A DNA stretch of 64,000 nt, from positions 51,837 to 115,836 of the IMG/VR virus record IMGVR_UViG_3300047157_000068; one strand, 5' to 3'. Numbering within the stretch: position 1 is the first letter of the stretch; each line of letters starts with the position of its first letter. The notes below the pieces were generated by a model. The model had not been told where the DNA came from and searched no databases. It saw only the letters and a list, made by a program, of their open reading frames with translations. This document shows, one piece after another, positions 3,370 through 64,000 of the stretch. A program made the translations under genes and the position numbers. The DNA is from a virus.

Positions 3370-3715
3370 TTCTAAATTCTTTTTTCTTTAGTATGTCTTT
3401 TTCTAATTGATCCATAGCGGCATTCATTTGCTTTATGTTATTGTGAATTTCTTCACTTTGTGCAAAACCGTTATATGTTCTTTTAGTTATATTACCCAAT
3501 AAACTTTTGTTTTTTAAAATAGCCTTTTCAAGTTTATTTTTTCTTAGGTAAAATGTACCTAATCCATCTATATTTATTCTAGGATAAGCTAAGGTTGAAA
3601 GTTTCTTTCTAACTTTTGCATAATAAAATGATATAAAATCATCTACAACTGATGGATGAACTCCAACCTCATCTGCAATACCCTTTCTCAAGTCTTTATG
3701 ATTCTTCGGATTCAC
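3350..3715 (-). CDS. IHF/HU-family DNA-bending protein
   Basis: 121 residues with the histone-like fold. The N-terminal helices (DLRKGIADEVGVHPSVVDDFISFYYAKV) and the beta segment YPRINIDGLGTFYLRKNKLEKAI match HU/IHF, in which the arm region contacts the minor groove. The C-terminus adds a helical charged extension beyond the usual ~95 residues. IHF-type subunits encoded near structural genes are a recurrent feature of crAss-like phages. It may act in DNA compaction, packaging or promoter architecture; which one is inference. It overlaps both neighbours. Confidence 0.75.
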   Translation of the reverse strand: MNPKNHKDLRKGIADEVGVHPSVVDDFISFYYAKVRKKLSTLAYPRINIDGLGTFYLRKNKLEKAILKNKSLLGNITKRTYNGFAQSEEIHNNIKQMNAAMDQLEKDILKKKEFRNEREVE

Positions 3716-13343: not shown

Positions 13344-13420
13344 GGTCCTATAGCTCAACTGGATAGAGCAACAGCCTTCTAAGCTGTAGGTTCTAGGTTC
13401 AAATCCTAGTGGGATCACCA
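13344..13420 (+). tRNA. tRNA-Arg (anticodon TCT)
   Basis: A 77-base cloverleaf. The acceptor GGTCCTA pairs with TGGGATC (two G-U wobbles). The anticodon stem is ACAGC/GCTGT with loop CTTCTAA, giving TCT. The T-loop is GTTCAAATC and the encoded 3' end is ACCA. It reads AGA/AGG. The next tRNA begins at the following base. Confidence 0.92.
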
Positions 13421-13509
13421 GGCCGGATGATGGAATTGGTAGACATGACAGACTTAAAATCTGTTGAACTGGATAGTTCGTGTGGGTTCAAGTCCCACTC
13501 CGGCTACCA
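13421..13509 (+). tRNA. tRNA-Leu (anticodon TAA)
   Basis: 89 bases with the long class II variable arm (GAACTGGATAGTTC). The acceptor GGCCGGA pairs with TCCGGCT. The anticodon stem is ACAGA/TCTGT with loop CTTAAAA, giving TAA. CCA is encoded. It abuts both neighbouring tRNAs with no spacer. It reads UUA/UUG. Confidence 0.92.
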
Positions 13510-13585
13510 GGACTCTTAGCTCAGTTGGTCAGAGCACTCCGCTCATAACGGATAGGTCACAGGTTCAAGTCCTGTAGGGTCCACC
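13510..13585 (+). tRNA. tRNA-Ile2 (anticodon CAT, lysidine type)
   Basis: The acceptor GGACTCT pairs with AGGGTCC. The anticodon loop CTCATAA gives CAT. Body sequence such as CTTAGCTCAG, the CTCATAA loop and GGTTCAAGTCC closely follows bacterial tRNA-Ile2, in which C34 becomes lysidine and reads AUA. Elongator tRNA-Met is the alternative. The 3' end reads ACC-T, so the final A must be added after transcription. Confidence 0.85.
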
Positions 13586-35099: not shown

Positions 35100-38000
35100 T
35101 TAAATTCCTGTGTAACCATGATTAATTAGTGCCGTTCTTATTTGATTATACCAATAAGCACCTGGAGTTGCTGGAACATTATTTAAATCACTTCTCCATC
35201 TTAAACGTATAGGCGCACCTGTTGACCAAGCTGTCATTTGTTGGAATTGTGCTGAACTATATCCTGCAAATGTTGCAGCTGGAGGTGTAAATTCTGTACC
35301 GTTAATACCAAATGGTAATAAACCTCCTCCATCTGTACCTGCATTTCCTCCATCAGCAACTAATGGTGCTAAATCTGGAGTTGCACCATTTACTTGGAAG
35401 AAAGTAGATCTATATATTGAATTATTACCTGCTGCTGCTTCAACTGTATTTATAAAGTTTACAACTGAGTTAACATCTGTATTAAGATTAGCAACCATAG
35501 AATTCTGTCTATCTGCCCATCTTCCATTACCTACACCATTAAGACCATAGTTATCAGATTCATCTGCAAAACATAAGAACATTAAGTTATCTGCATCTGG
35601 AAAATATCCGCCTGTTCCTATTGTTGTACCTTGACCTCTATTATTCATCATATCAATTTGCCTTTCTGCTGCAGAATGACCCCAATAAAGATGAGAATCA
35701 TACATGTCTTGTCCATTAGTAGCTGGATTAGGCGTTACACCTCCTGCAATTTCCTGTGCTAAAGTTTGACCTACAGCATAAAAATCTTGTAATAAGTTTC
35801 TTAAGTTATTAGGATCTTGATAATCTGCAAGTACCATTGCATCAGTTAATGAAAATGTAATTATATCTCCATTATTAGTGTTTTGTAATGTTTGAATACC
35901 CGTTGTTGCATCTACTAAGAATATATCAGGATTACCAATATTTGCAGTTCCTACTATAGTATTAGGAGGAATTCCACTACCTGTTACTGACATACCCGCC
36001 CTAATCAATAAGTAAGATTTGCTAGTCAGACCATTTGGATTAGATACAAGTCCTGTATTTACACCATTAGATAGTCTTAGCTGATCTGTACCTGTAAACT
36101 GACCGGTTGATTGTGTATAAAAAACAGGAACACTTGATATTTGTGATGTTTGAAATATTGTACTATTCATAGATCCTGAAGTGTCATGCCAAGTAACAAA
36201 GTAAGTATCTTTAGTTACTGCTAAACCACCAATTGTAAATGTTTGTGTGTCTACTAGACCATCTGGATCTTCAACAATCATTTGAACTACATAATTTCCA
36301 CCTGCTGCAGGATAAGTTCCTGATAATGTTCCAGTACAATCATTATTATTTACAAAAGATAACCAACTTGATCCAGCTGCAGGGAATATTTCAACTCCGT
36401 CAACTGTAATTGTATAAGTTAAATCAGTACATGGATGATCTGGATCTGTTGTTGTCCAGTTATATGTCCATACATCATTACCTGTTAAATTAGGATATGT
36501 ATTTGCAGTTACAGGATCGGTAGATGTCCACAATGGTGGCTCTACTACGCTGTTAACTACTATATTAATAGTAGAAATATTAGATGTACAATACCCATCA
36601 AATACTTGAAATTGAAAGCTTGTTGTACCATACCAGTTAGCATCTGGTGTAAATAAAAATGAACCTGTTCCCGTATCATAAGAGAATACTCCATTTGACG
36701 GTCCTGGCCCTACTAATTGAAAAAGATTACCATATCCACCATAACCGTCATCAATAACAACCATAGTGTTAGTTAAACTTGTATCTTCATCTATAATATA
36801 TGTTGCTCCTGCTGTTACAGGGCATGTATTTTCAGAATAAAGTTTACAACATGACTCCCAATATAATACTGAGTTTGCTGCATCAACATCATAATAATGA
36901 TATTTTATTTTAATTGACTCACCATATAGTAATTCACTAGTTTTGTATCCTAACTGAGGTATTGTTGGTTCATACCAAGAAACTCTATTAGTTACATTTG
37001 CTAAACCGTTAGCCCAATTACCAAATCTTATTGCTCCATCTGGAAGAAGAGACCCTGTTTGAGCATTTTCTGCTATAACTACTCCTGTCATACCATCTTC
37101 TAATGGTGTCATTCCTTTTATAATTCTATAAGATGCAGAAGCTGTTTCTTCTAAATTTATAAAGGCGTTTCTATATCCTGATACTTGATCCCAATCAGCA
37201 GTTTGACTCATTGGAAGAGTATCAAAACCTACTGCAGGTACAATTGTAGATACATCTCTAAATTTAACTTCATTAGATGAACCTGTATCTCTTACTAATA
37301 CTTCAGTAAGAGTGTCATCTTGCGCTACTGTATCTAAAAATAATTCTTTTGTTTGTACTAACTGGCCATCATTAGTAATCTTAGTAGCAGGAGTACCTGA
37401 ATCACCATCTTGTATTAATAAAGAACAACCCAATGTATTAGAGTTAGGTGTCCATAATGGTATTCTATAAATATCACATTGCTCTCCTACAATTGCTGCA
37501 GGATTGTCTTCCCAAGAAAAAGTTACTCCATCAGAAATAAGAATCTGATCTGCTGTTCCAATAGGTAACTCTTGTTTTAAATTGTTTACATTTCCTTGCC
37601 ATAGACTTCCATAAGTTAAAGCTTCTACAACATCATCATCTGACCATATTACTCTTCCGTCACCTAAACCTACAAGAACTTGAGATAGTTGACCTACATT
37701 TCCTTGTGAATCGGTTATTGGTCCATTAAGTACAATATTAGAGTTAAGTGTTGTAGTTGTAGGAGGTACTGTAGCCATAGTTAAACTACCGTGCTGAGCA
37801 TTTACTAATGCAGTAAATGTAACTCCATCCATTGTGAAATTTGGATCATCTTCTAATACACCTCCAGGACCAACTATAACTATACGGTCTTCTGTTAGTG
37901 TTGGAGTTGTTATTGTACCCTCTACATATAAATCACCTGCTATATTTATAGTATCACCTATAGCGTTTTGTGTTATAATAGAATCCATTAAAGTATCCCA

Positions 38001-38273
38001 TGCACATGACCCTTCAGGTGTAGTATAAACAGGAACAAAACCAAGTTTACCTTCACCCGGTTTTGTTCTGGTTAAGTTTTCTGTTGCTTCACAAACTAGA
38101 TCTCCCCACTTTACTACAAAAGGTTCCATCTTAGGGTTATAAGCAGCACCAGTATTTAAATTACTAGTGTGATAAAGCTTACCAAACTCAAAATGATCTC
38201 TCATTTTGTCTAGTTTCTTTTTCTTTTTATTCCTTTTTAATAGTCCTAAGACCTCTTGTATATAAACACTCAT
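35100..38273 (-). CDS. Virion fibre/appendage protein with a C-terminal VWA domain
   Basis: 1,057 residues, last of the minus-strand structural genes. It begins with a short amphipathic, Lys-rich peptide (MSVYIQEVLGLLKRNKKKKK) shared in pattern with the two other fibre proteins. A beta-rich, Asn/Thr/Gly-rich shaft runs to about residue 480. Ig/cadherin-like parts (PDANWYGTTSFQFQVFDGYC; TVDGVEIFPAAGSSWLSFVN) lie around 490-690. From about 690 a von Willebrand A-type domain begins with the MIDAS motif WHDTSGSMNST (Asp about 697). This suggests a host-binding tip that uses metal-dependent adhesion. The binding target is unknown. Confidence 0.7.
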   Translation of the reverse strand: MSVYIQEVLGLLKRNKKKKKLDKMRDHFEFGKLYHTSNLNTGAAYNPKMEPFVVKWGDLVCEATENLTRTKPGEGKLGFVPVYTTPEGSCAWDTLMDSIITQNAIGDTINIAGDLYVEGTITTPTLTEDRIVIVGPGGVLEDDPNFTMDGVTFTALVNAQHGSLTMATVPPTTTTLNSNIVLNGPITDSQGNVGQLSQVLVGLGDGRVIWSDDDVVEALTYGSLWQGNVNNLKQELPIGTADQILISDGVTFSWEDNPAAIVGEQCDIYRIPLWTPNSNTLGCSLLIQDGDSGTPATKITNDGQLVQTKELFLDTVAQDDTLTEVLVRDTGSSNEVKFRDVSTIVPAVGFDTLPMSQTADWDQVSGYRNAFINLEETASASYRIIKGMTPLEDGMTGVVIAENAQTGSLLPDGAIRFGNWANGLANVTNRVSWYEPTIPQLGYKTSELLYGESIKIKYHYYDVDAANSVLYWESCCKLYSENTCPVTAGATYIIDEDTSLTNTMVVIDDGYGGYGNLFQLVGPGPSNGVFSYDTGTGSFLFTPDANWYGTTSFQFQVFDGYCTSNISTINIVVNSVVEPPLWTSTDPVTANTYPNLTGNDVWTYNWTTTDPDHPCTDLTYTITVDGVEIFPAAGSSWLSFVNNNDCTGTLSGTYPAAGGNYVVQMIVEDPDGLVDTQTFTIGGLAVTKDTYFVTWHDTSGSMNSTIFQTSQISSVPVFYTQSTGQFTGTDQLRLSNGVNTGLVSNPNGLTSKSYLLIRAGMSVTGSGIPPNTIVGTANIGNPDIFLVDATTGIQTLQNTNNGDIITFSLTDAMVLADYQDPNNLRNLLQDFYAVGQTLAQEIAGGVTPNPATNGQDMYDSHLYWGHSAAERQIDMMNNRGQGTTIGTGGYFPDADNLMFLCFADESDNYGLNGVGNGRWADRQNSMVANLNTDVNSVVNFINTVEAAAGNNSIYRSTFFQVNGATPDLAPLVADGGNAGTDGGGLLPFGINGTEFTPPAATFAGYSSAQFQQMTAWSTGAPIRLRWRSDLNNVPATPGAYWYNQIRTALINHGYTGI

Positions 38274-47981: not shown

Positions 47982-50900
47982 TTATTTAATATAGAAATCA
48001 GCATTTTTAATATAGGATTTCCATTTTTGTATTGAATAAACTATTGGGAATACATCTCTAAAGTTTTTGTGAACTTTAAATTCTCCTTTTCTATCACCTC
48101 TTTGATATACATATGTAGAATTAGATAAAAACTCTTCTTCATTACCGGTTAATTTTGATAAACCATATCTAGCATTTCCAACAATAAACATTTCTAAAAA
48201 TTCTGACATTTCTGTTACAGACCTAGCAGAAGCAATAGGAGAGTTTGCCATTTGATCAATCTGCTTAGCACCAGCAAAAGAAGGCATAAATAATACTAGT
48301 TCTTTATAAGCTCTATCTGCCTGGTATCTTGTTAAGTTCTTAAGTCTTTTTTCAAAATCAGTATCATCGTCATCTCCTCTTAAAATTTTATCAAGTATCA
48401 TTGAGGTAAACATAACACTAAACATTATTCCTAATTCACCCATAGTTCTATAAAAACCAAATAGTTTATTCTTAGCTCTTTGATCCATGTTACCTCCTTC
48501 TCCATACTTTCTATCTACACCATACTTTTCATTACTATAAAAGTTTACTTGAGCATCCATATAATCTTTACCCATTGTTTTAAAATGAGTATTCTGATTT
48601 ACAAAAACTTCTTTCATTGCATAATTTATAAATGATAAAGCAGATCTATATCTACCTTCCATCCATCCTAAGTTTTGATCAAAATATTCTCTTTGATATC
48701 TTGCTCTAATTGCAGGAGCTACCCACTTTTTAAACTGAACAGCAAGATTTCCTAAAGTATGAGATTGTAAAACCATTCTATCGTCTTTAGCATAGTTACC
48801 GTGAATTTGCTTGTTGACTTCTCTAATTTCATTTCTTATCTCATATCTCATATCATCATTCCATTCAACCTTTGTACCATCTCTTTTAATAAGAAACTTA
48901 TATCCTGGTTTTAAAATGTTGCTGTGAGTTTTTGTATCATATTCAAAAGCATCATATAAAGATAAAGCATTACCTCCCTCATCTTCTATCATGTAATCCA
49001 TTAAAATAGCCATTCCAACTTTAGTTTGAGAGTTATACTCGGCAGCATCCTGCATTATATAACCCCATTCAGTTGCTCTATCAAACCAGCTTTTACCTCC
49101 ATCAGTAGCAGAACTTTGTTCACGTAGATCAGCCATGTTATCCATCATTCTAAATCTGTCAACAAAAGCCTCATATTTATTATTAGGCAATTTTTTATTA
49201 TAATCTGCCTTAGCTAATCCGGGTATTACTCCTAATGTAACTACGTCAAGTAAATCTTCTGCACCTCCGTGTGATGTTCTTTGTACTAATGCGGGCAGGG
49301 CTCTTTTATTAAATTCCCACGTTGCTCTTTTAAATGCACTTTGAGAATAGAATCTACCCCCTAATGCTTCTACATTATTGTTTAGTCTACCAATTAAGTA
49401 GTTATTAAAGTTACCAAACGGGTTAAATGCTACATATGATAAAGAAGAAAACTGAATAATACCATCAGCTATTTTATCAAATGCACCTTTAGTTACTAAT
49501 TCATTATCATAATGAACCATTGACATAAACTTTTTAGCTCTTCTTACAACATTCTTTTGTTGTTCTGTTCTATTAACTTTAGTACCTATGTTAGATATTA
49601 CCTTATTAGCTGTTCTACTAACTAAGTTTAATCCAGCTGACGGAGCAGGTGTATATGTTCTCTCTTCAATAACTTTAACAAAAGCATTTAATGTATCATC
49701 AATTTGACCCATTGTTTCAAAGTTCTCTGCCATTGCACTAAACTTAAGTAAACTAGAAGCCATATCTGTATCTATTTGACCCAATGCCGGAGTAGACATA
49801 AGCTTAGACATCTTACCATTTAAAATAGCAATATCAGCTTTGTATTGATCTCTTGTTATTTTGTTCTTTTTGTATTGACCTTTTAATATATCAATATCTT
49901 TTTGAACACTAGCTCTTTCTTCATCTGTTCTTGGTTTACCTGTATAGTATATTGGAAGTTGATTTATTATATAACCCTGATTATCTACTTGTATGTTTTT
50001 TTGCTGCTGAGTTGTTTTAAACATATTCCAGGCCTTAGTACGGGCAGCCTTAGCGTACATTTTACTATATAACGTTCCTTTATTAGACACTTGATCTAAT
50101 AACCTATTCATTACTAAAGGTGCTCTTCCTAACATGTCAGCTGCTATACCAATAGGTATTTTTTTAAGAAGGTCTTCTTCAAACATACTTACATACATTT
50201 CATAAAACTCTCTTTGTGCAATAGATAACGCATCTGTTTTACTAGGATCCATAATAGCTTTGTATTTTGGATTAGTCATGCTGTCACCGTTTCTTGGCTC
50301 TAGTACTGCTTCTACATACTCTGGTCTTACAGCATCAAACTCTTCTCCCACAATCTGAATTGTACCATCCGGTGTATCGTTTACCCTGTTTGCCTTTGTA
50401 TAAGGTTTTCTATCAAAGTACCTAGCACGGTATGTAATCCATTCTGCATGTGGAACGTTTTCTCTTTTTTGCCAATAACCCCTTGTAGCTGCTTCAGTTC
50501 CAGGATTCCAAACTTCATATTTAGCTCTTGCATTTTTAAATTCTTGAGTATACTTATGGTACATCCCATCAATTAACTTATCATTTTCATCTTTATCTTC
50601 TGCTTGAAAAAAATCACTGTATGCTCTTTTCTTATTAGCTAAGTCTATGTTATACTTAAGATCTTCTCTGCCCTGCTTTGTTTTTAGGGCTTCTTCTAAA
50701 TTAAATACCGGTCTATACTCATACCAAGTACCTTCATTATCTGATAAAACAGATCTTAATTTATCTTGTTTTATATTATATTTTTGACTTAATGCTTTTA
50801 CATACTGTCCACTAAACACTTGTTCTCCATCAATTTCTACAAACTCAAGCATAAAATTATAAAGATCCTTTAAATCTATACCAGGATTAAGTTTAACTAG

Positions 50901-53753
50901 TTTTTGCCCTGCAGCTCTAATTATACTTTCTCTTTGTGATACCTTATCTAATAATTTTTGTGTTTGTATCTTTCTAATTTTAGCCATGACACCAAGTAAA
51001 ACATCTCCAGATGTATCCATGTCTCTAGTCTGATACTCTACTCCATCAATATCTGCAGCAAATTCCATGACCAAATCAAGATCCTCTTTAGTAAAGTAAC
51101 TTCCTTCACCACCATAATTATTACTGGACTTTTGTCTTACTTGCTCTTGAACGTAATCATATAACGCATTGTCAACAATACCTCTGTTTGATTTAGACCC
51201 ACTTAGTGCATTAAGCTGAGTTTGTAATGATAAAATTAAATTTTTCTGTGTATTATTTAAACCAATTAAATCTGTTAACTCATATAGACCTTTAAATGTT
51301 TCTAGATATTTTTCAAAGTGTAATGCATATGATAAATACTCAGGCTTATCAATGTTGTTAGGGTCTTCCATATATGCCCTAAATTCTTTTATTTGTTGTA
51401 ATGCATCCTGTAATACTTCAGATAAAACAACTGATTGTTTTCCGGCATCTTCAGACAATGCAATTGCAATATATGCAATGGTCTTTGATATCTGATCAAT
51501 CTCTTTCTGCTGTGTAGACTGAATGTAAATACTATTCTTTACTAAAGGTATAAGATCTCTCTTAGCAATTAGTTTACCCATATAGTCTTCTAGTAGACCA
51601 GCATGAATATTATATTCTGTATAGCCTTCTGCATCCTTTTTATCTTGCTCTGTTGTTTCTGTCTTTTCATTTTTACCATCCCACCTTGCATTGTATGCAT
51701 CACGTTGTTTTTTGGACAAAGAATCTTTCTTAGCAGAATTTCTTGATATAGGTATTAATTTGTTTACTTTATCTAACTGTGTGCTTATTGGATGTGGCTC
51801 AATTCTATCATAATTTATTTCACCATTAAATACTTGATCAACACCTTTTCCATCAACACCTACATGGAAGTGTATGGTTGCCATAGCAAACTCATCATAT
51901 GCAACTTCATAGCCCATATTCTCAGTCATTCTTCTGTATAAAGCTACTTGTAGATTATGTTGTGCTCTTGTAGACAACTTAGTTACACCGTGTTCTATCA
52001 GTTTACTGTCATTACCTAATGAATATGGAAAATTATATTTTTTAATACCATCATCATTTACATCATCTAGGTTATTCTTGCTTGTCTTTAAGTCAAAAAT
52101 TCTAACCTTACCCTTTGCATCAATAATAAAAATATCAGCCATACCTGCTATTTTTGATTCTTCATCAAACAATACTACTTGTGATAAAATAAGTGATCCT
52201 GTCTCACGGTAGTTTTCTATTATAGAATCTAATGTATCATATACTTCTTTTGCTTTTTCCTTAGATATATTATTAGTCTTTAGGTTTTTATATGCAGCAT
52301 TAAATTTTAAATTTCCAATAACCCCTTCTAATAAAGTATCTACCTCATTACCAATTTCAAGATTCAGCCTGTGTTCAACTACTTTAGTTGGAGATAATAC
52401 TCCTTTGATAGCTGTTGTAGCTGATGTATATACATCCTTAGTTTTATTTGGATTATAGTATACATGATCTTCTTCATTTAATATTACCAGTGTATCACCA
52501 GCAGCAGCATTTTTTTCAGAAGCAGAAAACTGATGCACTTGTTCATCGTAAAGCTGAGCTAAATTAAATATTTGATCTACTATTGGTCTTTGAAGAGGGT
52601 TTGCTTTAGCTCTTATTGCTTTTAATTCAGATGCTTTTTCTTTTGATAAGCTATACCTTACATTTCCATTTACCCTTTTCTCTAACTTAAATTGTATACC
52701 TTCTGTATTTAGCAGTTTTGCAATATCACTCATAGATGTACTAGCTACTATAGCTGACACAGGTAAAGGTTTACCTGTCAGATAAATGCTTAAGTTCTCT
52801 ATAACACTTTTAAACCACTCTAATAATTCACCAATTGCATTTAAGAAACCTTTTGTTGGTTTGCTTTCATATTCTTTTTTGAAGTGTCTGGCTAAAGCTT
52901 GCGTTACAATTTCTAGGTCTCTTTCAGTTTCACTAAAATTTCTAGATTGATTATTGTATGCATCTTTAATTTGCTCAGATAGTTCAGGAAAATTAGTTAC
53001 TGCTTCATCTAATAAATTATTAAACAGTTGTTCATTTTCCATTTTTACTGCATCTATAAAAGGATGCAACATTTCTTCAATTGCTATTTCATCAGTAACC
53101 CTACCTTTAATTAAGTATGCTACTCCATTATAATAAAAAGACTTAACATTTTTAAATCCTATATCTTTAGTATTGTACTTTGGTAAGCTTTCTAATAATA
53201 CTCTAGCTTGTGCAACTGATATCATTTTTACATTAACCTGTGGAAACATTCTTTTTAAATGCATCACTACAGCTCTTGATCTATTTGTATCCCATGATCT
53301 TGATTTTTCTAATAAATCTCTTCTACTAAATACACTATCAATTGCTTCTATTTTATAGCTTTGTTTTGTTCTGGTTACACTAAAAGCTGACTCAGGTATA
53401 TTATTAATTTCTAAATACCTATAAAATCTTTTTAAATTATTTTGCAAAAAAGACTCATCATATAGTAAGGTATCAGGATTAGAATTGTTTATAAGAAACT
53501 GTCCCGCCAACCTGCTTCCAATTTTTTCCCTTCTTATATTATCAAGCACAGCTTTACCAAAATCTTTTTGTTGTAAACTAAATGCAATCTTTTGATCAGA
53601 AACCATTGCTTTAGCTTGAACAGGACTTGGAAAAATATCAGATTCATTTACTTCTTGCCAATTACTAATAACTTGAGAAGTACGTAAATCAGACTTATAA
53701 ACATCTTTTAATGCTTGATATCCCGGATCATTTCTATTATAACATTTAGCCAT
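47982..53753 (-). CDS. Giant virion-type protein with embedded PD-(D/E)XK nuclease
   Basis: 1,923 residues, 14 bases downstream of the RNA-polymerase giant, so probably co-made and packaged with it (cargo/ejection protein). Near residues 225-233 a zincin-like helix, IEEMLHPFI (His about 230), resembles a degenerate HExxH. Residues ~530-600 carry a full PD-(D/E)XK core: KIAGMADIFII (Asp 540), VRIFDLKTSK (D554, K556), and QHNLQVALYRRM (Gln helix). Later parts are Lys/Asn-rich helices with one hydrophobic segment near 1780 (MFSVMFTSMI). The nuclease may process host or incoming DNA. No N-terminal signal. Confidence 0.7.
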   Translation of the reverse strand: MAKCYNRNDPGYQALKDVYKSDLRTSQVISNWQEVNESDIFPSPVQAKAMVSDQKIAFSLQQKDFGKAVLDNIRREKIGSRLAGQFLINNSNPDTLLYDESFLQNNLKRFYRYLEINNIPESAFSVTRTKQSYKIEAIDSVFSRRDLLEKSRSWDTNRSRAVVMHLKRMFPQVNVKMISVAQARVLLESLPKYNTKDIGFKNVKSFYYNGVAYLIKGRVTDEIAIEEMLHPFIDAVKMENEQLFNNLLDEAVTNFPELSEQIKDAYNNQSRNFSETERDLEIVTQALARHFKKEYESKPTKGFLNAIGELLEWFKSVIENLSIYLTGKPLPVSAIVASTSMSDIAKLLNTEGIQFKLEKRVNGNVRYSLSKEKASELKAIRAKANPLQRPIVDQIFNLAQLYDEQVHQFSASEKNAAAGDTLVILNEEDHVYYNPNKTKDVYTSATTAIKGVLSPTKVVEHRLNLEIGNEVDTLLEGVIGNLKFNAAYKNLKTNNISKEKAKEVYDTLDSIIENYRETGSLILSQVVLFDEESKIAGMADIFIIDAKGKVRIFDLKTSKNNLDDVNDDGIKKYNFPYSLGNDSKLIEHGVTKLSTRAQHNLQVALYRRMTENMGYEVAYDEFAMATIHFHVGVDGKGVDQVFNGEINYDRIEPHPISTQLDKVNKLIPISRNSAKKDSLSKKQRDAYNARWDGKNEKTETTEQDKKDAEGYTEYNIHAGLLEDYMGKLIAKRDLIPLVKNSIYIQSTQQKEIDQISKTIAYIAIALSEDAGKQSVVLSEVLQDALQQIKEFRAYMEDPNNIDKPEYLSYALHFEKYLETFKGLYELTDLIGLNNTQKNLILSLQTQLNALSGSKSNRGIVDNALYDYVQEQVRQKSSNNYGGEGSYFTKEDLDLVMEFAADIDGVEYQTRDMDTSGDVLLGVMAKIRKIQTQKLLDKVSQRESIIRAAGQKLVKLNPGIDLKDLYNFMLEFVEIDGEQVFSGQYVKALSQKYNIKQDKLRSVLSDNEGTWYEYRPVFNLEEALKTKQGREDLKYNIDLANKKRAYSDFFQAEDKDENDKLIDGMYHKYTQEFKNARAKYEVWNPGTEAATRGYWQKRENVPHAEWITYRARYFDRKPYTKANRVNDTPDGTIQIVGEEFDAVRPEYVEAVLEPRNGDSMTNPKYKAIMDPSKTDALSIAQREFYEMYVSMFEEDLLKKIPIGIAADMLGRAPLVMNRLLDQVSNKGTLYSKMYAKAARTKAWNMFKTTQQQKNIQVDNQGYIINQLPIYYTGKPRTDEERASVQKDIDILKGQYKKNKITRDQYKADIAILNGKMSKLMSTPALGQIDTDMASSLLKFSAMAENFETMGQIDDTLNAFVKVIEERTYTPAPSAGLNLVSRTANKVISNIGTKVNRTEQQKNVVRRAKKFMSMVHYDNELVTKGAFDKIADGIIQFSSLSYVAFNPFGNFNNYLIGRLNNNVEALGGRFYSQSAFKRATWEFNKRALPALVQRTSHGGAEDLLDVVTLGVIPGLAKADYNKKLPNNKYEAFVDRFRMMDNMADLREQSSATDGGKSWFDRATEWGYIMQDAAEYNSQTKVGMAILMDYMIEDEGGNALSLYDAFEYDTKTHSNILKPGYKFLIKRDGTKVEWNDDMRYEIRNEIREVNKQIHGNYAKDDRMVLQSHTLGNLAVQFKKWVAPAIRARYQREYFDQNLGWMEGRYRSALSFINYAMKEVFVNQNTHFKTMGKDYMDAQVNFYSNEKYGVDRKYGEGGNMDQRAKNKLFGFYRTMGELGIMFSVMFTSMILDKILRGDDDDTDFEKRLKNLTRYQADRAYKELVLFMPSFAGAKQIDQMANSPIASARSVTEMSEFLEMFIVGNARYGLSKLTGNEEEFLSNSTYVYQRGDRKGEFKVHKNFRDVFPIVYSIQKWKSYIKNADFYIK

Positions 53754-53767
53754 TTCTTATCTTTTTA

Positions 53768-56700
53768 TTATAGTAAACATTTAAGTCTATCTATTAGTTC
53801 TTGTTCTCCAAGCTCTGTTTGTGAAAACAAATCTCCATATGCAAACATAGCATCTTGCAAAGAGTTTATACCTTGTTCACTCATTTTCTTTTCTGCTTCT
53901 GTATTACCAGCAACATTATCAGACCACCATTTCTCAAGACTTACAACCTCACTCATTTCTTCTGACTCAGCTAAATCTAGCTTTAATTGGTTTTCTTGAC
54001 TTTGTTGTTCTTCAGTCCTAGTATCTAAGGTCTGTGAGTTATTCTCCATTTCAGCATTAGCTACTTCATCAAAGGTACCACTTGCTGTCAAATCTGACAA
54101 GGCTTCAAGTGCTTTTGCTGTGTCTGCTATATTAGTATTAGCTTGTTCATCATTTTCTTTTACCTCTACACTGTTATTTGTAACTTCAATAATTGCACCT
54201 GGAGTTCTTAATATATCTTGTTTTTGTTGTGTTTCTACAGCACTAACACCAACGCTTGCACCAGCTTCACCAGTTTGTTGCATTGGTTGTTCTATTTCTA
54301 AAAATATATTTTTAATATCTTCTGAAGAAAAGTTAAAAATGCTAGGGTTTACATCTATATCTTTTAGAGTATTTGGATTATAGAAAGAAGGGTCTATTAT
54401 TTCACCATTCCTAGATATAGCCATATCATAGTTACGTCCTTTATACTTTAAGTTTAATGAATATGAATCATCACTAATTTTATCATATACTTCATTTACT
54501 ACTTTAACCTTACTACTTTGTTGTATTGGTTGTACTGATCTAATAACATCATTAACTGGAGTATTACTATTAATATTTCTTGTCTGAATATATGTTAATC
54601 TTGGACCACCTACAAAACCGGCAGCAAATTGCTGGTTAGATCCCATTGATGGAACTAATCTATATGCAACTTTTCCATCTACAACATCTGCTTCCTCATC
54701 ACGTTTAAAGAGTTTATATGTTTTAGACATAGCATCACTAAGGTCTAATCTAAAGTAATCAATCATTTTACCATTGTCTTCCATTTCATCTTTGATATAG
54801 ACTACTTCTTCAACAGGAAGATACTCAACATCGCTTGTCTTATAGTTGCGTAGTATAGGTCCTGTTGGATTAGATTCTAGGTAACCCTCTTTAAATTCTT
54901 TTATAAGTTCTTCTTTTGTTATACCAAATGCTTTCTCATAAGGTATAATTCCTTTTAATGCTAGTTCAACTGTATTTACATTATTAAGATACTTCTCCAT
55001 AACAAAAGGACTCATTGCTTTTAATAAAGAACCATACTTTAATTGCAAGCCGTCTTTAACCATCATATAATGAAGAATAGATATTGCTAAATCTCTTGTT
55101 TCCAATCCACCATATAATTTTGCAAAGGAGGTTTGAAGGTCAATCAAGTTTGCTGCATTTAATCTTCTCCAAGTATTTGAAGTAGCTATGTTTAATCCTG
55201 TAGTATTTCCATTGTCTGTTGCATACTCAGTTCCTACAAATGAATCTAAAAAGAAATTACTTTCTTCATTGTTCTCTGACCTTCTTGTTTTTTCATCTCT
55301 TATCATTTTAACAATAGATAAGTCTGCTTCATTTATTGGACCAGGATAAATTAAATTATTTGTAACCGGTGCTGCATTGCTAGAACTATTGTTTAGCAAA
55401 TGTTTATAGCTCTTTATTGTTAAGTAAGAAAGTAAATCTTGTTCTACCTTTGCTGCAGTATCAAATCCAAATTTATTATTATCAATATCTAGATTATCAT
55501 TAACCGGACTTAATATTTCTGCAAACTCTGGAGACATTGTTAAAAGAACATTTGGTAATAAATCTTGGTAAATCTGACTAAAGACTTTAAGGTTAGTACT
55601 TTGCCATGTTTTGCTTTTAAAAATTGAAGTAACATCAGCTTGAGCATCTTTTCCAAACAGCTCTTGTAAGTCTTTAATGTTCTTCTTAGTAGTTGGAACA
55701 TTTTGAGGCAACCCTTGTGATAACACAACTGCGGGTCTCATTTTTGCAGTCCAGTTTTTTATTTTGTTTAACCTACTAAAAGCATATAAGATTTGTAATC
55801 TCTCATTATCACTTAAATCCTTAGTACTATCTACAGCTTTTACTAGTAAATCTTTATTTACTTGGGCAAACTTTACTTTTCCATTTTTATTTTTTTCTTC
55901 TGTTACTTTTGCTTTTAGAGATGCTATTCTACTATCAAGTAACATTTTTAAATTTGGAGATGTATTATCAACTTTGTTCTGAGATAAGTCATATAAATCT
56001 CTAACTTCAGCAGAGTTTAATAAAAGCAATGTTGTTTCTAAAGGTATACCCAATGAAATCATATTAGCAGCCATACCTACAGCATGTATATTTAATCCTA
56101 ACTTAGATATGAACCTTTCTTTAGCGTTATCTGTTTCCATTGTAACTAAAGAAGAAATTATATCTTGCTTTCTTTCACCGTTTATAATCTTGCCTCCAAA
56201 ACCATTATAGGGAACATTGCCTAGTTTAAAAGGTTTAAATAGATCAATATTGTATTCAGTTAATAAATTAAGATATACGTTAGGTAATACTACAGCACCA
56301 ATAGCTGCTCCTTTGTTTGCTTCAAAAGATTTAATCATACCAGTCAGTGAGTCTACATCAACAGGAGAATCTTGTCTATCCTTAAAAAGTTGTATGTCTG
56401 GATTAGCTACAAGGTTATTAAATGCAGTCTTTAATACTTCTATATCTGCCGCTTGATATGCAATAGGTAAATCTTTTTTAAGATCTTGTTGAAGTAACTC
56501 TGTGCCTGTCATACCTTCATTACCAGCAAGTGCATAATTATAATCTAAAATTTTATTATTTAATACTGCCTCATTAGGGTTGCCATGCTTTTCAACATAG
56601 TCAGTAAACTGTTTTTTTGTTGCTGGTAAGCCAAGCATTAAAGCAGCTCTTAAAGAATCTTCATTAAATTTATTCTCACCTTCTTGATCAGTCAATCTAT

Positions 56701-59700
56701 TCATTTCTTGCGGTGATAAAGCATTATCCATTCTAATAGCAAGCTGATCATTATTAAACATTGATGCAGCTTTATTATAAACTGTATCTGGTTTAGCTGT
56801 TAGGTTATTTATATTTTTAACATACTCTGTATATGGATCACCTTGACCAAACTCTATAAAATTATTATTATCATCTAAATAATATTCTTTAATTTTTGCA
56901 TATACTTTATCTATATCAAAATCTGCACCTGATACTTCAACTATTTCTTTAGGAAATATAGCAGAAGAGCCATAATAAGCAGGTAGAAAATCTACAATCT
57001 TTATGTTTACAGCAGAGTGTTTATCTTGAGTTGGTATACGTACACCAAACATCTTAGATATAGCATCAGGAATTTTAGCATCTGTATTAGCAATTAAATC
57101 CATTACATTCTTATCCATTGCCGGCATAACAACTTCACTATATCTTTCACCAGTTTTAGTAGATGCATCAGCAGGATTAGTATAACCCATTAGCCCTGTT
57201 CTTAAAACATCTAGAATAACTATACCTTCTGGATAAACACCATCTCCTGGAACTCTATCTGCAAAGTCTCCTTTGTATTGACTTTCTCTTAATATTTCAG
57301 ATCTTACAGGTATACCATTTTTAACTTCATATACTTTTCTATAATATCTAGTACCAAAAGATGATACTAAAGCTAGCGCTGTACCAGGAACTTTTTCTCT
57401 TAATGTACCTTTACTAAAATATGAAAGAAATAGTTGTTCATACTTCTTAGCTGTAAAAGGATTATTAAGATTAAACTTTTGTTCATTTTTATCTGATGTA
57501 AAAAACTCTAATAAATTTGATGCTGAGCCAGATGCCTTTAAAGAATTTTGTGCATAGTCTAAAAATGCTCCAAGATTAGGTGTTATAGCACCTTTCTTTT
57601 TAGATAATTTAAATTCATCTAGTGCTGTATCAAAAGTAAATACTAGGTTTCTTTTATTTTTATATTTTAATATTACTCTTTGTGATGTTGCAGCATTATA
57701 TAATCTTCTAACATCACCAACGTTCATTGTTTCACCTTTTTCATTTAAACCCAGCCCAGGTATTTTAACTGTATCATCTTGTTCAGATGTAATTATATCC
57801 TTAATCTGAGTCATGTCAGTAATTTCCATCTTATTGGATGGCTGAATAACTTGAAGCCCCAAGTACTCTGTACTTAATTTAGTAGATTTTAAATTCTGAC
57901 TTAAATCAAAACCGCTTGAGTCATCATTTAATTTGTTTACAGTATTCTTCATCATCTTTACAGCTGATAATGGGGCAGCCATAGCAAAGTTTTTATTGGC
58001 TTCCTCATTGGCTTCCATTTGCTCACGTAAATAATGAAGCTGCTCTTTAGTTGGTTTAGGTTCCCACTTACCTAACTCAGCATTATAATTAGATGTATAC
58101 TCTTTTGTTAAGACAGTAACAGACATTTTAACTGCTGTTTTACCATCCATGTAAACATACTTTTTAGAATTTATAAGTTCTTGTTTTTTTGCAAGACCTA
58201 TAGGTTTGTCTTCAGTTCCAAATATAGCATCACTGTTTGGTGCTTGTCCAATGTCAAGTGTATCATACATGCTAGCCATAGAAGGACTTAACCTACCAAA
58301 ACCAAATGTAGCATACCTTGATCCTTTAGTTGTAATATATGCTTGTGCATCTGCACTATCAATATCATTACCTGTTAAAGATGATTGCTCTGTTATTTCA
58401 TCAAATACAAACATATCAAAGTTTGTACTTGCATGATTTATTCCAAGTTCAGGTGCAGACAATACACTGTATGCACTATAGTATGCGGCATTATTTAACT
58501 TAGCTCTTTTAACTTTATCAACCATACTTTGCAGTGTCATTGCTTGATCACCTAGTAAAAGGTCATTAATAGAAGCTGAGTTAATCCAGTTATTAAAAAA
58601 TATCTGTTGTAGGTTATGAGATTCATTGGTGTTTAAGTTTAATTGACTACCAGCTAAATCAACCATAGTTCTAGCAACTCCTTGACCTATAGTCAATCCT
58701 TGTCTAACTTGAGTTGATAAATTATCTTTTACTTTTAGTTTTGTAATTAATTCATTAAACTCTTCAAATGCTCCATTCAAACTTGAAGTAACTTCATTTT
58801 TTATAGTTGATCTTGACACACCTATAGCTAGCTTAACACCTTGATCAAAAGTCATTACTTGTTTTTGCTTACCTGCATTAATAGCTACATTAGCTAGTGT
58901 TTGTTGAGTAATAGGATCTAACAATAATCCTGTGTTTGCAAAACTAAATGCTCTACCTTGCATGGAGTCATTATATCCTTGAATATCACCACCAAGCTCA
59001 CCAAAAGCAATAGCTTCTCTATTTATCCTTTCAAACTCTGAAGCTATTCTATCTATAAACGCATTTACTAGTTGAGGAGTAAGCTCAACGTTTTCACCTT
59101 TCATAGTTACAGCTTTTATTACAGGCAAACTTGTTAAGTCTCCAGTATTAGCTGCTTCCATTACTCTTAAAAATACAGGTGCTGTTGCTATAGGTAGCTT
59201 TCCAACACCTTCTACTGAATCTACTTTACCTGTTCTTCTGTTAAAATTAGATACATAATTATTAATTAATGATACAGCAAACTCTTTTGGTGTAAACTCC
59301 CCAAAGCTTTGTGTAGACTTACTATCTTCTAAAGATGTATTTAATATATCTTCTGCAACGCTATCATTAAGATCTGTTGTAACAATAGATTTAATTTTGC
59401 TACCCGCAATTCTAGTTACTTTTATTCTACCTTGAGATGATAAATTTCTAAATGCCTCATTATTTAATAAATAATTATTGCTTAGATATTCATCATTTGA
59501 TAGTTGATCTATTTTTTTTGGATTATTTAATGCAGATATTGCTTTTAAATGATAAGTTGGAAGTTGATGACCATAAACTAAATCACCATTTGGATTAATA
59601 AATGATGATGCACCAATTGATTCATCAAAGATTGCATTATTTAAACTTATATAAGTAAGTCTAGATGCCATACCATCTGATTTCTTAGAGAAAATATTAT

Positions 59701-62700
59701 CATCTCTATACATAAGATCATATAGAGTTACTAAAAACTGCTCAGATATAGGCTCAATAGAGTAAGCGTTATATAATATTTTTTGCTCTGGATCTAATTT
59801 AGCATAATCAAAAGTCTTAATGTAACTATAGTTTAAATACATTGGACTTAACCTTATACCTGTTAGATCAAATAATTTTTGAGAATGCTCTCTAGCTTTC
59901 TCATCACTCTTTTCACTAGTTAAGTATTTGGTTTTGTCACCTAAAACAAGAGACATGTTTTTAACTAAGTCAAGCAAGTCATCAATTTTTTGACCAGACT
60001 CATCTAAATTCATTTCTTTCCTCTTAGTTATATAAGCTTGTGACCACTCATCTAATTGTGAGTTAATATCATCACGTTCTGAGGCAGTGTATATTAATAT
60101 GTTTCCTGCACCATCTCTTTCATTAAATATATAATCTACTTTATAGTTTTCAAAACCTTTAACTATTGACTGCAATAGACTAGCATTGGTAACATTTATA
60201 AAAGGTGATTCAGAAGACAAAGACTTTATATCTAGATTTGCATCATTAAATAATTTGTCAACTACTGCTGCCATATTAGGATTTAACCTAGAGTATGAAT
60301 ACATACGTCTAAGCATAACAGCCTGATCACTTATATTAGATACAGCTTTTAGTAAACCATTATATGCTTCATTAAATTTAACAGGAACAATTAATGGTTC
60401 TCCTTCCGTTAATTCTGTCTTACCAAAAAAGTCTACATCTTTCATTGTTGAAGTAGCAATGTAAGACCTCACCTTTTTAGTTAATGAATTAAACCCTCCT
60501 ATCTCAGATGCATCTTTGTCAAATTCATCTGCTTTTCTTAATCCAGTTGAATCTTCTTCTGCTTCTGATTTAAATTCACTCTCATTATCTTGATCTGATA
60601 TTATATTAATTAAACCAAAAACCTCTTTCTTTATATCTTCAGGGTAATTAGTAAATGCATCCTCTAATTCTTCAAGTTGTTTTATTTTTCCTGCTCCTAA
60701 AATTTTATTGCTAGCATCTTCTGGATCAAGTAAAATTCTAAAGTCACGTGCAATACTCTTATAAACATCTTCAGGGTTATAGCTTTCTTCTTCTAAGTTA
60801 TTAACTCTAGTTATAAACATACCGGCCATTGATCTAATTAATGGATCAATTACCATTGAATCAACATATAAAAACCCTGATACATTCTCATCTTTAGATA
60901 CCACATCGTGTCTTACCAATGCATTTGCAACAGTAATTCCAGCATCTGATGTGAATTCATTTAATTGTACAGTTGCACTTTTAAATTTACCAGCATCAAT
61001 ATTTTCATACAATGTTTGTAATTCATTAGGGGTATACTTAGATAACACACCTTTAATCCACTCAATTATCTTAGTAAAGAATGATTTAATCTCTGTGTTA
61101 GTCTTAGTACTTCTTGGGTCCTTTTTAAATGCTTCAAACTCATCAGCCAAGTATTCTTCTATAAACTCATTCTCTAATTCAATATCAGAAAGATCTTCAT
61201 ATTGTTTTGCGGTTGTTCTAAATTTTTCTAATTCAGCTTTATACTTTGAACCATACTTGCTTTTTAATTCTGACTTACCAAGTTTTCTATATCTATCTAT
61301 TTGTTCTTGTGTAAGTAGCATTCTAAAGACACCATGAAATGCTTCATGATATTTAAAAGGATTATTAGCACCAACATATACAGTACCGTTTACACTTACC
61401 CCTCCTGCTATCTTATGTATATCTAAAACAAAAGCACCAACTCTTTTATAACCTTTAGTTATGCCATTATCTGCTAGAGTAAGTACATCTTCTATACCTA
61501 TTATAGATGGTAATGATTCATTTGCCCAATCTAAAAACTCATTGTAGTCTTCTATTCTCTCTACTTCAGTAGTTGCTTCAACTAATTTGTTTGCTGTCTT
61601 AGAAAGTTTTTTAACTATTGCAAGTTGTTTTTGATATTCTTTGCTTTCATCTAATGCATCAATTTTAGCTGCACCTTTTAATCCTTCTGTTAGTGTAGCT
61701 TTTAGTTCTTTAAGTTTAGCTTTTTCTTTATCTAGTGTTGTCTCCTTTGTTTTTTCTTGTGGTTTAAGACTTCCTATGCCACCTGCAGCAGCAACACGTA
61801 AATTAACCCCATTAGAAATAACAGGGTTATTCATCATTTTTTCTTCTGCTTCATTTAGAGGCTCTCCTCTAAGCATTTTATTTATTATATGCTCAATGCC
61901 TACAGGATGACCTTGAAAATCATTATCAATTCTAGATATTAATTCTTCCTCTGACATATCAAGAACACTGTCATCAGACTCTTCAGATATCTCAGGTAGT
62001 GCTACTTCTTCTTCAATTCTCTTATCCTCATTCTTAGGTCTAACACTTGCAAATGCCACAGCTTGTTGTGCTAGTATTGCATCTGACTCAGCAGAAAGAA
62101 CTAATGAGTTGTCTGTTACTACTTCAATTCCAACTTCAGTTGTACTCTTATCTACTATATCTTGAGCAGGGGCACCTGATGCAAAAGACTTTCTTATATT
62201 TTTGTCTCTTACTTGTGCATTATTTGCAGCAACTTTTTCTAATTTATTATACTTAGTAATTAAACTTTCTATTATTTTAACGGCACTTGTATCTGAATTA
62301 ACAACAGGAAAGTCAATGCTTACAGATTCTATATTGACTATCTCTTCTCCTTTTTGTTGATCCAATTGAATAAATATACTTCCATCTTGCCCAACTTTTA
62401 AATCAAGAAGATTTCCAGGATAACTACTTAAAAATAATTTATCTGATAATTCTTCATTGTATTTAACAGCCGCAGCATTTCTTTTGAGATCATCTTTTAT
62501 TGCTTGAATTTCTTTAGCTTTATCAACAATCTCTACAAAAAGAGCTTCTTTTTCTTCTTTTGTATATGTCACTGCTTTAAGATTAACTAAAGCATAAGTA
62601 CCATTTGGTAGCTTAACTGCAGCAAGATATCTATCTGTTCCTGCTAGCAAACTATCTCTAGTAATTCCTTGTTTTTCTAATTGATTTAGTACTTTATTCT

Positions 62701-64000
62701 TTAAATCAACTTCATCAGTAGCAGATGTGGTATAGTTAAATATTCTACCACCTTGTTTTTTATCATACTTTAAATCAAATATAAAGTAGTTATTATTTTC
62801 ATCTGCATATTGATAATCTAATGCAGGCATATAAACAGGGTTACCTTTACTATATACAATCCTTCCTCCTTTTGAATCAAGCTTTATATTAAAAGGTAGA
62901 TCTTTTATACTAAAGTATTGTTTCTCTTCTGCTACTCCAAGATTATTAAATGTTGTAGTAAGCATAGAGTTTAATGTAAATGCTTTTTGAATTTCTTTTA
63001 ACTGTTCTTCGGTAGTTATACTTTTACCAAATGGAGTATACATTACATTCTGAGCTTGTCTTAGATTCATTGATCTAGGATCTACATTAGCTCCTGTTAG
63101 TTGATCTTTAATTAAAAATGAAGCATTGTTCATATATGCAAATATTCCATCTGGTGAATCAGAAGGTTGTATTTTCTTTTCTAATAGTTTTTGATTTATC
63201 CTATCTTGTGTTACAGTATTATTAATTCTAATACCCACAACATATTCACTACTATATCTTTTAATTAATGGGTTTGAGCTTTTATATTGATAACCAGACA
63301 TATTCTGAACAGAATACTCTTTTACAGTCTGTGGATTTGGATTTCTATATACAACAAACTCTAACTGTTCTCTTTCAGCTGGTGTCAACTCTTTTAGTAT
63401 AGCTTTAAGTCTTTCTTTGCCTTCGGCATTTTCATATGTTAAAGCTTGTGCTATTTGCTCATCTGATAAACCTTTCTTGTCAGATCTATTTGCATGTGCA
63501 TAAGGAGACAATAATGATTGAATGTCTAACTTACTAACTGAGTCATCTAATACATCCATTGTTATTTCTTCAACAGAAAAAACATTCTTAAACTCTCCTT
63601 GTTTTATATATTCAAATTTTCTTGTTGATATAGGCCCAACATTATTAGATTCTTTAATTACTCTAAGCTTTTGATTTTTACCAAATTTCTTTGAGCTGTT
63701 GGGTTTTTGAATTATAATATACTTCTCACTTCCTTTGTAAATAGACATTCCATAAAACAAACCACTAACACCATCAAACTCAAAAGTTGTTGAATCAGGA
63801 GCTTGATCATCAAGAGCAGACAAAGCATCATAAGCTGTAGCAGCAGCATTTTCATTAAACGTACCTCTTGTTGATTCAAATTGTTGATCAACAAAATCTA
63901 ATAAATCTGAACTTAACTTGTTTCCTTTTTTATCTAGCAACTCATAAATAGTTATAGGCTCCTGTCCAGGAACTTTTACTACTCTTTTATATAAGTCTGC
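53768..64000 (-). CDS. Giant virion RNA polymerase polyprotein (N-terminus beyond the right edge)
   Basis: The frame is open from 64000 to the stop at 53768: at least 3,410 residues. A TTG at 63940 is not a true start, since coding (LYKRVVKVPGQEPITIYELL) continues upstream. Numbering from 63940: a zincin domain has the metal motif KYHEAFHGVF at about 864-873. The catalytic double-psi barrel of a crAss-type RNA polymerase is recognised by VEVSGADFDIDKVYAK with DxDxD at 2340-2344, as in the Cellulophaga phage phi14:2 enzyme gp66. The C-terminal ~300 residues are Gln/Asn/Glu-rich. Expected to be packaged, injected, and to transcribe early genes. The fusion of protease and polymerase is striking. 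Confidence 0.8.
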   Translation of the reverse strand, partial: ADLYKRVVKVPGQEPITIYELLDKKGNKLSSDLLDFVDQQFESTRGTFNENAAATAYDALSALDDQAPDSTTFEFDGVSGLFYGMSIYKGSEKYIIIQKPNSSKKFGKNQKLRVIKESNNVGPISTRKFEYIKQGEFKNVFSVEEITMDVLDDSVSKLDIQSLLSPYAHANRSDKKGLSDEQIAQALTYENAEGKERLKAILKELTPAEREQLEFVVYRNPNPQTVKEYSVQNMSGYQYKSSNPLIKRYSSEYVVGIRINNTVTQDRINQKLLEKKIQPSDSPDGIFAYMNNASFLIKDQLTGANVDPRSMNLRQAQNVMYTPFGKSITTEEQLKEIQKAFTLNSMLTTTFNNLGVAEEKQYFSIKDLPFNIKLDSKGGRIVYSKGNPVYMPALDYQYADENNNYFIFDLKYDKKQGGRIFNYTTSATDEVDLKNKVLNQLEKQGITRDSLLAGTDRYLAAVKLPNGTYALVNLKAVTYTKEEKEALFVEIVDKAKEIQAIKDDLKRNAAAVKYNEELSDKLFLSSYPGNLLDLKVGQDGSIFIQLDQQKGEEIVNIESVSIDFPVVNSDTSAVKIIESLITKYNKLEKVAANNAQVRDKNIRKSFASGAPAQDIVDKSTTEVGIEVVTDNSLVLSAESDAILAQQAVAFASVRPKNEDKRIEEEVALPEISEESDDSVLDMSEEELISRIDNDFQGHPVGIEHIINKMLRGEPLNEAEEKMMNNPVISNGVNLRVAAAGGIGSLKPQEKTKETTLDKEKAKLKELKATLTEGLKGAAKIDALDESKEYQKQLAIVKKLSKTANKLVEATTEVERIEDYNEFLDWANESLPSIIGIEDVLTLADNGITKGYKRVGAFVLDIHKIAGGVSVNGTVYVGANNPFKYHEAFHGVFRMLLTQEQIDRYRKLGKSELKSKYGSKYKAELEKFRTTAKQYEDLSDIELENEFIEEYLADEFEAFKKDPRSTKTNTEIKSFFTKIIEWIKGVLSKYTPNELQTLYENIDAGKFKSATVQLNEFTSDAGITVANALVRHDVVSKDENVSGFLYVDSMVIDPLIRSMAGMFITRVNNLEEESYNPEDVYKSIARDFRILLDPEDASNKILGAGKIKQLEELEDAFTNYPEDIKKEVFGLINIISDQDNESEFKSEAEEDSTGLRKADEFDKDASEIGGFNSLTKKVRSYIATSTMKDVDFFGKTELTEGEPLIVPVKFNEAYNGLLKAVSNISDQAVMLRRMYSYSRLNPNMAAVVDKLFNDANLDIKSLSSESPFINVTNASLLQSIVKGFENYKVDYIFNERDGAGNILIYTASERDDINSQLDEWSQAYITKRKEMNLDESGQKIDDLLDLVKNMSLVLGDKTKYLTSEKSDEKAREHSQKLFDLTGIRLSPMYLNYSYIKTFDYAKLDPEQKILYNAYSIEPISEQFLVTLYDLMYRDDNIFSKKSDGMASRLTYISLNNAIFDESIGASSFINPNGDLVYGHQLPTYHLKAISALNNPKKIDQLSNDEYLSNNYLLNNEAFRNLSSQGRIKVTRIAGSKIKSIVTTDLNDSVAEDILNTSLEDSKSTQSFGEFTPKEFAVSLINNYVSNFNRRTGKVDSVEGVGKLPIATAPVFLRVMEAANTGDLTSLPVIKAVTMKGENVELTPQLVNAFIDRIASEFERINREAIAFGELGGDIQGYNDSMQGRAFSFANTGLLLDPITQQTLANVAINAGKQKQVMTFDQGVKLAIGVSRSTIKNEVTSSLNGAFEEFNELITKLKVKDNLSTQVRQGLTIGQGVARTMVDLAGSQLNLNTNESHNLQQIFFNNWINSASINDLLLGDQAMTLQSMVDKVKRAKLNNAAYYSAYSVLSAPELGINHASTNFDMFVFDEITEQSSLTGNDIDSADAQAYITTKGSRYATFGFGRLSPSMASMYDTLDIGQAPNSDAIFGTEDKPIGLAKKQELINSKKYVYMDGKTAVKMSVTVLTKEYTSNYNAELGKWEPKPTKEQLHYLREQMEANEEANKNFAMAAPLSAVKMMKNTVNKLNDDSSGFDLSQNLKSTKLSTEYLGLQVIQPSNKMEITDMTQIKDIITSEQDDTVKIPGLGLNEKGETMNVGDVRRLYNAATSQRVILKYKNKRNLVFTFDTALDEFKLSKKKGAITPNLGAFLDYAQNSLKASGSASNLLEFFTSDKNEQKFNLNNPFTAKKYEQLFLSYFSKGTLREKVPGTALALVSSFGTRYYRKVYEVKNGIPVRSEILRESQYKGDFADRVPGDGVYPEGIVILDVLRTGLMGYTNPADASTKTGERYSEVVMPAMDKNVMDLIANTDAKIPDAISKMFGVRIPTQDKHSAVNIKIVDFLPAYYGSSAIFPKEIVEVSGADFDIDKVYAKIKEYYLDDNNNFIEFGQGDPYTEYVKNINNLTAKPDTVYNKAASMFNNDQLAIRMDNALSPQEMNRLTDQEGENKFNEDSLRAALMLGLPATKKQFTDYVEKHGNPNEAVLNNKILDYNYALAGNEGMTGTELLQQDLKKDLPIAYQAADIEVLKTAFNNLVANPDIQLFKDRQDSPVDVDSLTGMIKSFEANKGAAIGAVVLPNVYLNLLTEYNIDLFKPFKLGNVPYNGFGGKIINGERKQDIISSLVTMETDNAKERFISKLGLNIHAVGMAANMISLGIPLETTLLLLNSAEVRDLYDLSQNKVDNTSPNLKMLLDSRIASLKAKVTEEKNKNGKVKFAQVNKDLLVKAVDSTKDLSDNERLQILYAFSRLNKIKNWTAKMRPAVVLSQGLPQNVPTTKKNIKDLQELFGKDAQADVTSIFKSKTWQSTNLKVFSQIYQDLLPNVLLTMSPEFAEILSPVNDNLDIDNNKFGFDTAAKVEQDLLSYLTIKSYKHLLNNSSSNAAPVTNNLIYPGPINEADLSIVKMIRDEKTRRSENNEESNFFLDSFVGTEYATDNGNTTGLNIATSNTWRRLNAANLIDLQTSFAKLYGGLETRDLAISILHYMMVKDGLQLKYGSLLKAMSPFVMEKYLNNVNTVELALKGIIPYEKAFGITKEELIKEFKEGYLESNPTGPILRNYKTSDVEYLPVEEVVYIKDEMEDNGKMIDYFRLDLSDAMSKTYKLFKRDEEADVVDGKVAYRLVPSMGSNQQFAAGFVGGPRLTYIQTRNINSNTPVNDVIRSVQPIQQSSKVKVVNEVYDKISDDSYSLNLKYKGRNYDMAISRNGEIIDPSFYNPNTLKDIDVNPSIFNFSSEDIKNIFLEIEQPMQQTGEAGASVGVSAVETQQKQDILRTPGAIIEVTNNSVEVKENDEQANTNIADTAKALEALSDLTASGTFDEVANAEMENNSQTLDTRTEEQQSQENQLKLDLAESEEMSEVVSLEKWWSDNVAGNTEAEKKMSEQGINSLQDAMFAYGDLFSQTELGEQELIDRLKCLL

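Follow-up and report, generated by a model that had tools for sequence, protein, structure and literature searches.

How does a single open reading frame of more than 3,400 residues come to hold both the signature of a zinc metalloprotease and the catalytic loop of an RNA polymerase, and what might the protease do there? The frame lies at the right-hand end of the window, a stretch of 64,000 nucleotides from the IMG/VR virus record IMGVR_UViG_3300047157_000068. A preliminary description of the window had proposed that one frame joins an HEAFH motif to the GADFDIDK loop of a crAss-type virion RNA polymerase and that it continues past the window. Both proposals hold. On the minus strand, the frame runs uninterrupted from position 64000 down to 53768 (3,410 residues) and contains one HEAFH and GADFDIDK. 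The HEAFH motif occupies residues 885-889 of the open frame; the position of about 865 given earlier had been counted from a TTG at 63940. This TTG is ruled out as the start, since the frame extends past it to an ATG at C1:3783, across the end of the record.

The window comprises bases 51837-115836 of the 115,836-base record and its end is therefore the end of the record. The remainder of the gene was located through L003, a near-identical phage (99.9%) in which the whole giant gene is present in one piece and encodes 4,590 residues. Residues 1262-4590 of the L003 protein align to the window from base 64000 downwards, while residues 1-1261 align to record bases 3783-1 on the minus strand, with zero residues missing at the junction. 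Because the L003 protein spans both ends of the record without a missing residue, the record is circular. The first 1,261 residues are thus encoded outside the window, across the circular join (C1:1-3783, minus strand), and the ATG at C1:3783 is the true start that the preliminary description had sought to the right of the window. The stretch at 53768-64000 encodes the C-terminal 3,410 of 4,671 residues. The difference from the L003 protein is an insertion of 81 residues within the variable tail at the C-terminus (segment 54266-54535, minus strand), which is not found in L003 nor in any other relative compared. Single-sequence searches of the whole giant protein against Pfam, PHROGs and the PDB gave nothing useful, and the sole match in a nucleotide search against phage records was a ribonucleotide reductase.

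The catalytic loop GADFDIDK is located at residues 2358-2365 of the open frame (56906-56929, minus strand), and its three aspartates (D2360, D2362 and D2364) are invariant in all 35 aligned sequences. A DxDxD motif alone proves little, because about 1.1 such motifs are expected by chance from the composition of the 3,410 residues. The surrounding core, residues 1788-2807 (55580-58639, minus strand), was modelled with AlphaFold from the 35-row alignment (pLDDT 81.3, pTM 0.84). In a Foldseek search of the PDB, the top match by far is 6VR4, the crystal structure of the virion polymerase of crAss-like phage phi14:2 (E 2.2e-27, probability 1.00, TM 0.63 over the query), and the second is QDE-1 (E 4e-4); the assignment as a two-barrel RNA polymerase core describes the overall fold match to 6VR4 rather than the barrels viewed singly. 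A profile search of PDB sequences returned 6VR4 only (E 1.3e-18). Furthermore, a full-length profile built from 26 relatives detects the polymerase of phi14:2 (E 1e-13) and also phiCrAss001 gp50, crAssphage gp44, cr1_1 gp076 and others. Among viral predicted structures, the closest match comes from Virus NIOZ-UU157 (a protein with 36% identity). Since homology and fold agree, we regard the identity of this part as settled: the modelled core and its sequence relatives confirm that the giant holds a crAss-like virion RNA polymerase. The fold and the profile similarity to crAss-like RNA polymerases, on which the earlier assignment depended, are both found. By analogy with phi14:2 and phiCrAss001, this polymerase would be packaged in the virion and would transcribe early genes.

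In L099 the catalytic loop reads GSDHDGD instead of GADFDID, and DxDGD is the usual form in cellular polymerases. The protein XAI97385 carries a ILLSDWDGDYFM motif, reminiscent of QDE-1-like polymerases.

The putative protease lies in the first half of the open frame, at residues about 800-1015 (60956-61603, minus strand). Its HEAFH motif (61334-61348, minus strand), predicted to bind zinc and to be catalytic, is a far less probable accident than DxDxD: only 0.007 HExxH motifs are expected by chance, with 18 histidines in 3,410 residues. The domain was aligned with 31 relatives reaching down to 34% identity. Throughout this alignment, the H, E, F and second H of HE[AG]FH are invariant, as are both glutamates of the following EE[YFH] and the aspartate after it (alignment positions H146, E147, H150, E209, E210 and D214 among them). 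The second motif, EEYLAD at residues 948-953 (61142-61159, minus strand), probably supplies the third zinc ligand, a glutamate. No other part of the first half of the chain is as well conserved as the stretch that holds these motifs. Directly before the zincin domain lies a variable acidic linker at residues about 640-740 (61780-62083, minus strand). Among 26 full-length relatives, no stretch of the N-terminal half is less conserved or has more gaps, which makes the linker a candidate cleavage zone.

Structural evidence for this domain is more modest than for the polymerase. The structure prediction that the preliminary description had suggested for both regions succeeded for the polymerase core; the zincin model, built from 5 sequences only, reached a pLDDT of 52 and its fold search gave no match. 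Within this overall poor model, the HExxH and glutamate motifs are both placed on predicted helices, as in zincins, with EEYLAD on the second helix and a block pLDDT of about 69-84. No family match was obtained in Pfam, and a profile search of PDB sequences yielded nothing significant, the best hit being a Pro-Pro endopeptidase (a zincin) at E 0.076. In contrast, phiCrAss001 gp47 is matched by the domain at its C-terminal end (residues 2156-2295) with E 9e-14, and weaker matches were obtained to cr1_1 gp076 and cr85_1 gp056. In the Pfam, PDB and phage sequence and profile searches, its significant homologues are crassvirus proteins only. On the strength of the invariant residues and the homology to gp47, the zincin-like domain is very likely real, and its presence in the polymerase frame agrees with what had been proposed. 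Zinc binding and proteolysis are activities that we infer from these residues.

Just downstream of the giant, and in the same direction, lies a partner gene encoding 1,923 residues (47982-53753, minus strand). The C-terminus of this protein matches phiCrAss001 gp49 (E 3e-32) and a middle segment matches gp47 at residues 1705-1836. The partner also has a zincin-like segment, in which the first histidine is lost: the motif reads EEMLH here and EEVLH in L039, whereas the aligned sequence of Leptolyngbya phage Lbo-JY46 is HEFMH. Corresponding proteins, identified by weak alignment, have HELVH in cr1_1, HEIVH in cr115_1 and HEIMH in phi14:2. This second protease is probably dead, judging by its motif across the relatives compared. 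Given EEMLH in the partner and HExxH elsewhere, one of two zincins seems to have been retained in the clade while the other decayed.

Comparison with named crassviruses places both proteins in a familiar setting. Closest in layout are two Suoliviridae proteins, cr1_1 gp076 (4,551 residues) and cr115_1 gp52 (4,493 residues, with many in-frame stops that are read through). Each has HEA[FW]H at about 2,000-2,030 and G[AS]DFD[VI]DK at about 3,450-3,560 in one chain and, as here, is followed in the same direction by a partner that has 1.8-2.0 thousand residues. They differ from our giant in their very low sequence identity to it and in their partner, which keeps HExxH. Their annotations are hypothetical or 'nuclear pore complex protein-like'. 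In the Steigviridae, phiCrAss001 shares the homologous zincin, polymerase (E 3e-19) and partner, but these reside in three separate genes on two strands, with the zincin at the C-terminus of gp47 and the polymerase, gp50, unfused. CrAssphage (Carjivirus communis) likewise encodes a zincin-bearing protein beside its giant polymerase protein; there, the zincin is in the separate gp45, and gp44 fuses the polymerase to a gp49-like part. The annotation of KP06_gp45, 'putative RNAP associated protein fused to zincin protease', indicates that a zincin in the crassvirus polymerase gene block was already known. Lastly, phi14:2 gp66 (PDB 6VR4; locus tag gp077, 2,180 aa) has the same polymerase fold and catalytic loop as a separate protein; gp078, encoded by the gene ahead, is without HExxH, and gp076 has HEIMH. 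The phi14:2 homologues are annotated as structural from MS/MS. Of the named crassvirus gene blocks, 12 were examined; all of them encode at least one large protein with HExxH, whether or not it is joined to the polymerase.

From these homologies a role for the chain can be proposed. The giant would correspond to the C-terminal zincin of phiCrAss001 gp47 joined to the gp50 RNA polymerase, with about 1,900 further residues ahead. In phiCrAss001, mass spectrometry detected gp47, gp49 and gp50 in virions, and these proteins are presumed to pass out through the tail partly unfolded (PMC10172136). By homology, the giant would be packaged in the capsid and threaded through the tail along with the DNA; the polymerase part would then refold in the cell and begin early gene transcription, and the zincin would be a zinc protease carried in on the same chain. 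We consider it probable that a crassvirus virion cargo polymerase is here made as a single chain with a co-delivered zinc protease.

The substrate of such a protease is a matter of narrower judgment. The zincin may cut the cargo itself, at packaging or entry, for instance in the variable acidic linker ahead of it. We favor proteolysis of the cargo as the most likely use, with a confidence that falls slightly below even, because the linker before the zincin is the most variable stretch of the first half and because self-processing has been proposed for the zincins of polyvalent proteins. Two points count against it: we know of no cleavage product of such a chain, and the zincin-bearing N4 polymerase is packaged uncut (PMC5512222). 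In addition, freeing the polymerase is not the only purpose of the zincin, since the domain is kept where it is unfused, as in phiCrAss001 gp47.

The same retention, fused or unfused (phiCrAss001 gp47, crAssphage gp45), would also suit an injected effector that enters attached to the polymerase and cleaves a host protein, be it a defence component, a host polymerase factor or an envelope protein, without any processing of the cargo. Host-directed effectors usually vary fast, whereas the zincin is among the best conserved parts of the chain in relatives down to 34% identity. Zincin-like domains do act as effectors in other conflict systems, and both self-processing and host targets have already been proposed for the zincins of polyvalent proteins (PMC5512222). 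On this balance, we judge a purely host-directed protease rather unlikely. Less likely still is that the fold is kept chiefly to help package or thread the giant chain and has little or no proteolytic role. In N4 the zincin region is needed for encapsidation though the protein is packaged unprocessed (PMC5512222), and the zincin-like segment of the partner is kept despite the loss of its first histidine. A scaffold, however, would not need the presumed zinc-binding and catalytic residues, all of which are invariant in the 31 relatives.

The preliminary description had treated the fusion as something that stands out. To estimate how widespread it is, 80 IMG/VR loci were collected with a zincin profile; some of these represent the same or nearly the same phage, and 41 zincin sequences are left at <90% identity. 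The zincin and a G-x-DFD-x-D loop share one frame in 74 of the 80 loci, or in 75 when L099 with its GSDHDGD loop is counted. Of the other five, three are truncated by contig ends and two have a frame break. The complete fused proteins span about 4,460-5,460 residues, and the literature describes crAss-like polymerase genes that encode as many as about 6,000 residues (PMC10136315). The fusion is thus no distinguishing mark of this record but a conserved, ordinary trait of at least two crassvirus groups, with the same order in cr1_1 and cr115_1. The earlier statement that other crAss-like phages split these functions over several genes applies to the Steigviridae and Intestiviridae examined and fails for the two Suoliviridae checked. 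With the zincin already known in the block, the giant is another case of a known arrangement. That the fusion is an assembly artefact or a one-off oddity of this record, as could be argued from the record end that cuts the gene and from the two overlapping frames in L067/L011 and L093, is rejected as practically excluded by its conservation across the 80-locus set and the two named genomes, and the break in L011 is likely a sequencing error because L012, 97% identical, is intact.

As a cause of the lengthening of these proteins, insertion of an intein or of a mobile element between the zincin and the polymerase was also considered and was rejected, because only expansions of 25-72 residues stood out. 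L114 has an insert between zincin and polymerase, about 1,060 residues past the zincin, with a further HEQFH.

As judged from its genes, the phage belongs to the Crassvirales: it has a crassvirus-type primase (the top-scoring hits are primases of crassviruses, with E as low as 6e-32), the virion RNA polymerase and the partner gene block. The major capsid protein is closest to that of Leptolyngbya phage Lbo-JY46 and is distantly related to those of Cellulophaga and epsilon crAss-like phages. In the polymerase tree, the relatives of the window form one clade apart from the sampled Steigviridae, Intestiviridae and Suoliviridae (support 100/99). A grouping with the Suoliviridae was not recovered in this tree; the clade is separate and its exact place is unsure because of its long branch. 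Its nearest named relatives (Virus NIOZ-UU157 and the Leptolyngbya phage) and the lack of close gut records suggest that the clade is aquatic. A search for relatives of a protein of the structural region (L015:7443-9665) found none. Elsewhere in the window, the protein of 1,057 residues encoded at positions 35100-38273 (minus strand) contains bacterial Ig-like (Big_9) domains and probably belongs to the surface or to a fibre; an adjoining protein of 938 residues gave no family match. Three adjacent tRNA genes, Arg-TCT, Leu-TAA and Met-CAT, lie at 13344-13585 (plus strand).

Metalloprotease domains also accompany other injected polymerases. The virion polymerases of N4-like phages (Schitoviridae) are reported to be fused to a zincin-like domain in every case and, as here, form a giant injected chain (PMC5512222). 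The N4 polymerase differs in that it belongs to the T7 type, which has no relation to the two-barrel one, and its zincin is C-terminal of the polymerase. Thermus phage P23-45 gp96 combines a two-barrel virion polymerase with a metallopeptidase domain in a chain of 5,002 residues (PMC10770324). That protein is, by contrast, fused to the tail tape-measure protein of a long-tailed phage, and its metallopeptidase is likened to ours by description only. Conceivably, these three unrelated or distant kinds of injected polymerase (T7-type in N4, two-barrel in crassviruses and the two-barrel tape-measure fusion in P23-45) all carry a metalloprotease because a giant polymerase that has to pass through a phage tail generally needs one for its delivery or activation; we offer this as a speculative and somewhat improbable generalization.

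For the crassviruses themselves, the zincin-like domain emerges as a standing part of the injected polymerase set. This locus and its relatives add a sizeable crassvirus group, for the most part undescribed, whose polymerase and protease share a single chain of at least about 4,500 residues. Through phiCrAss001 gp47, the question of the substrate becomes a practical one in a cultured phage.
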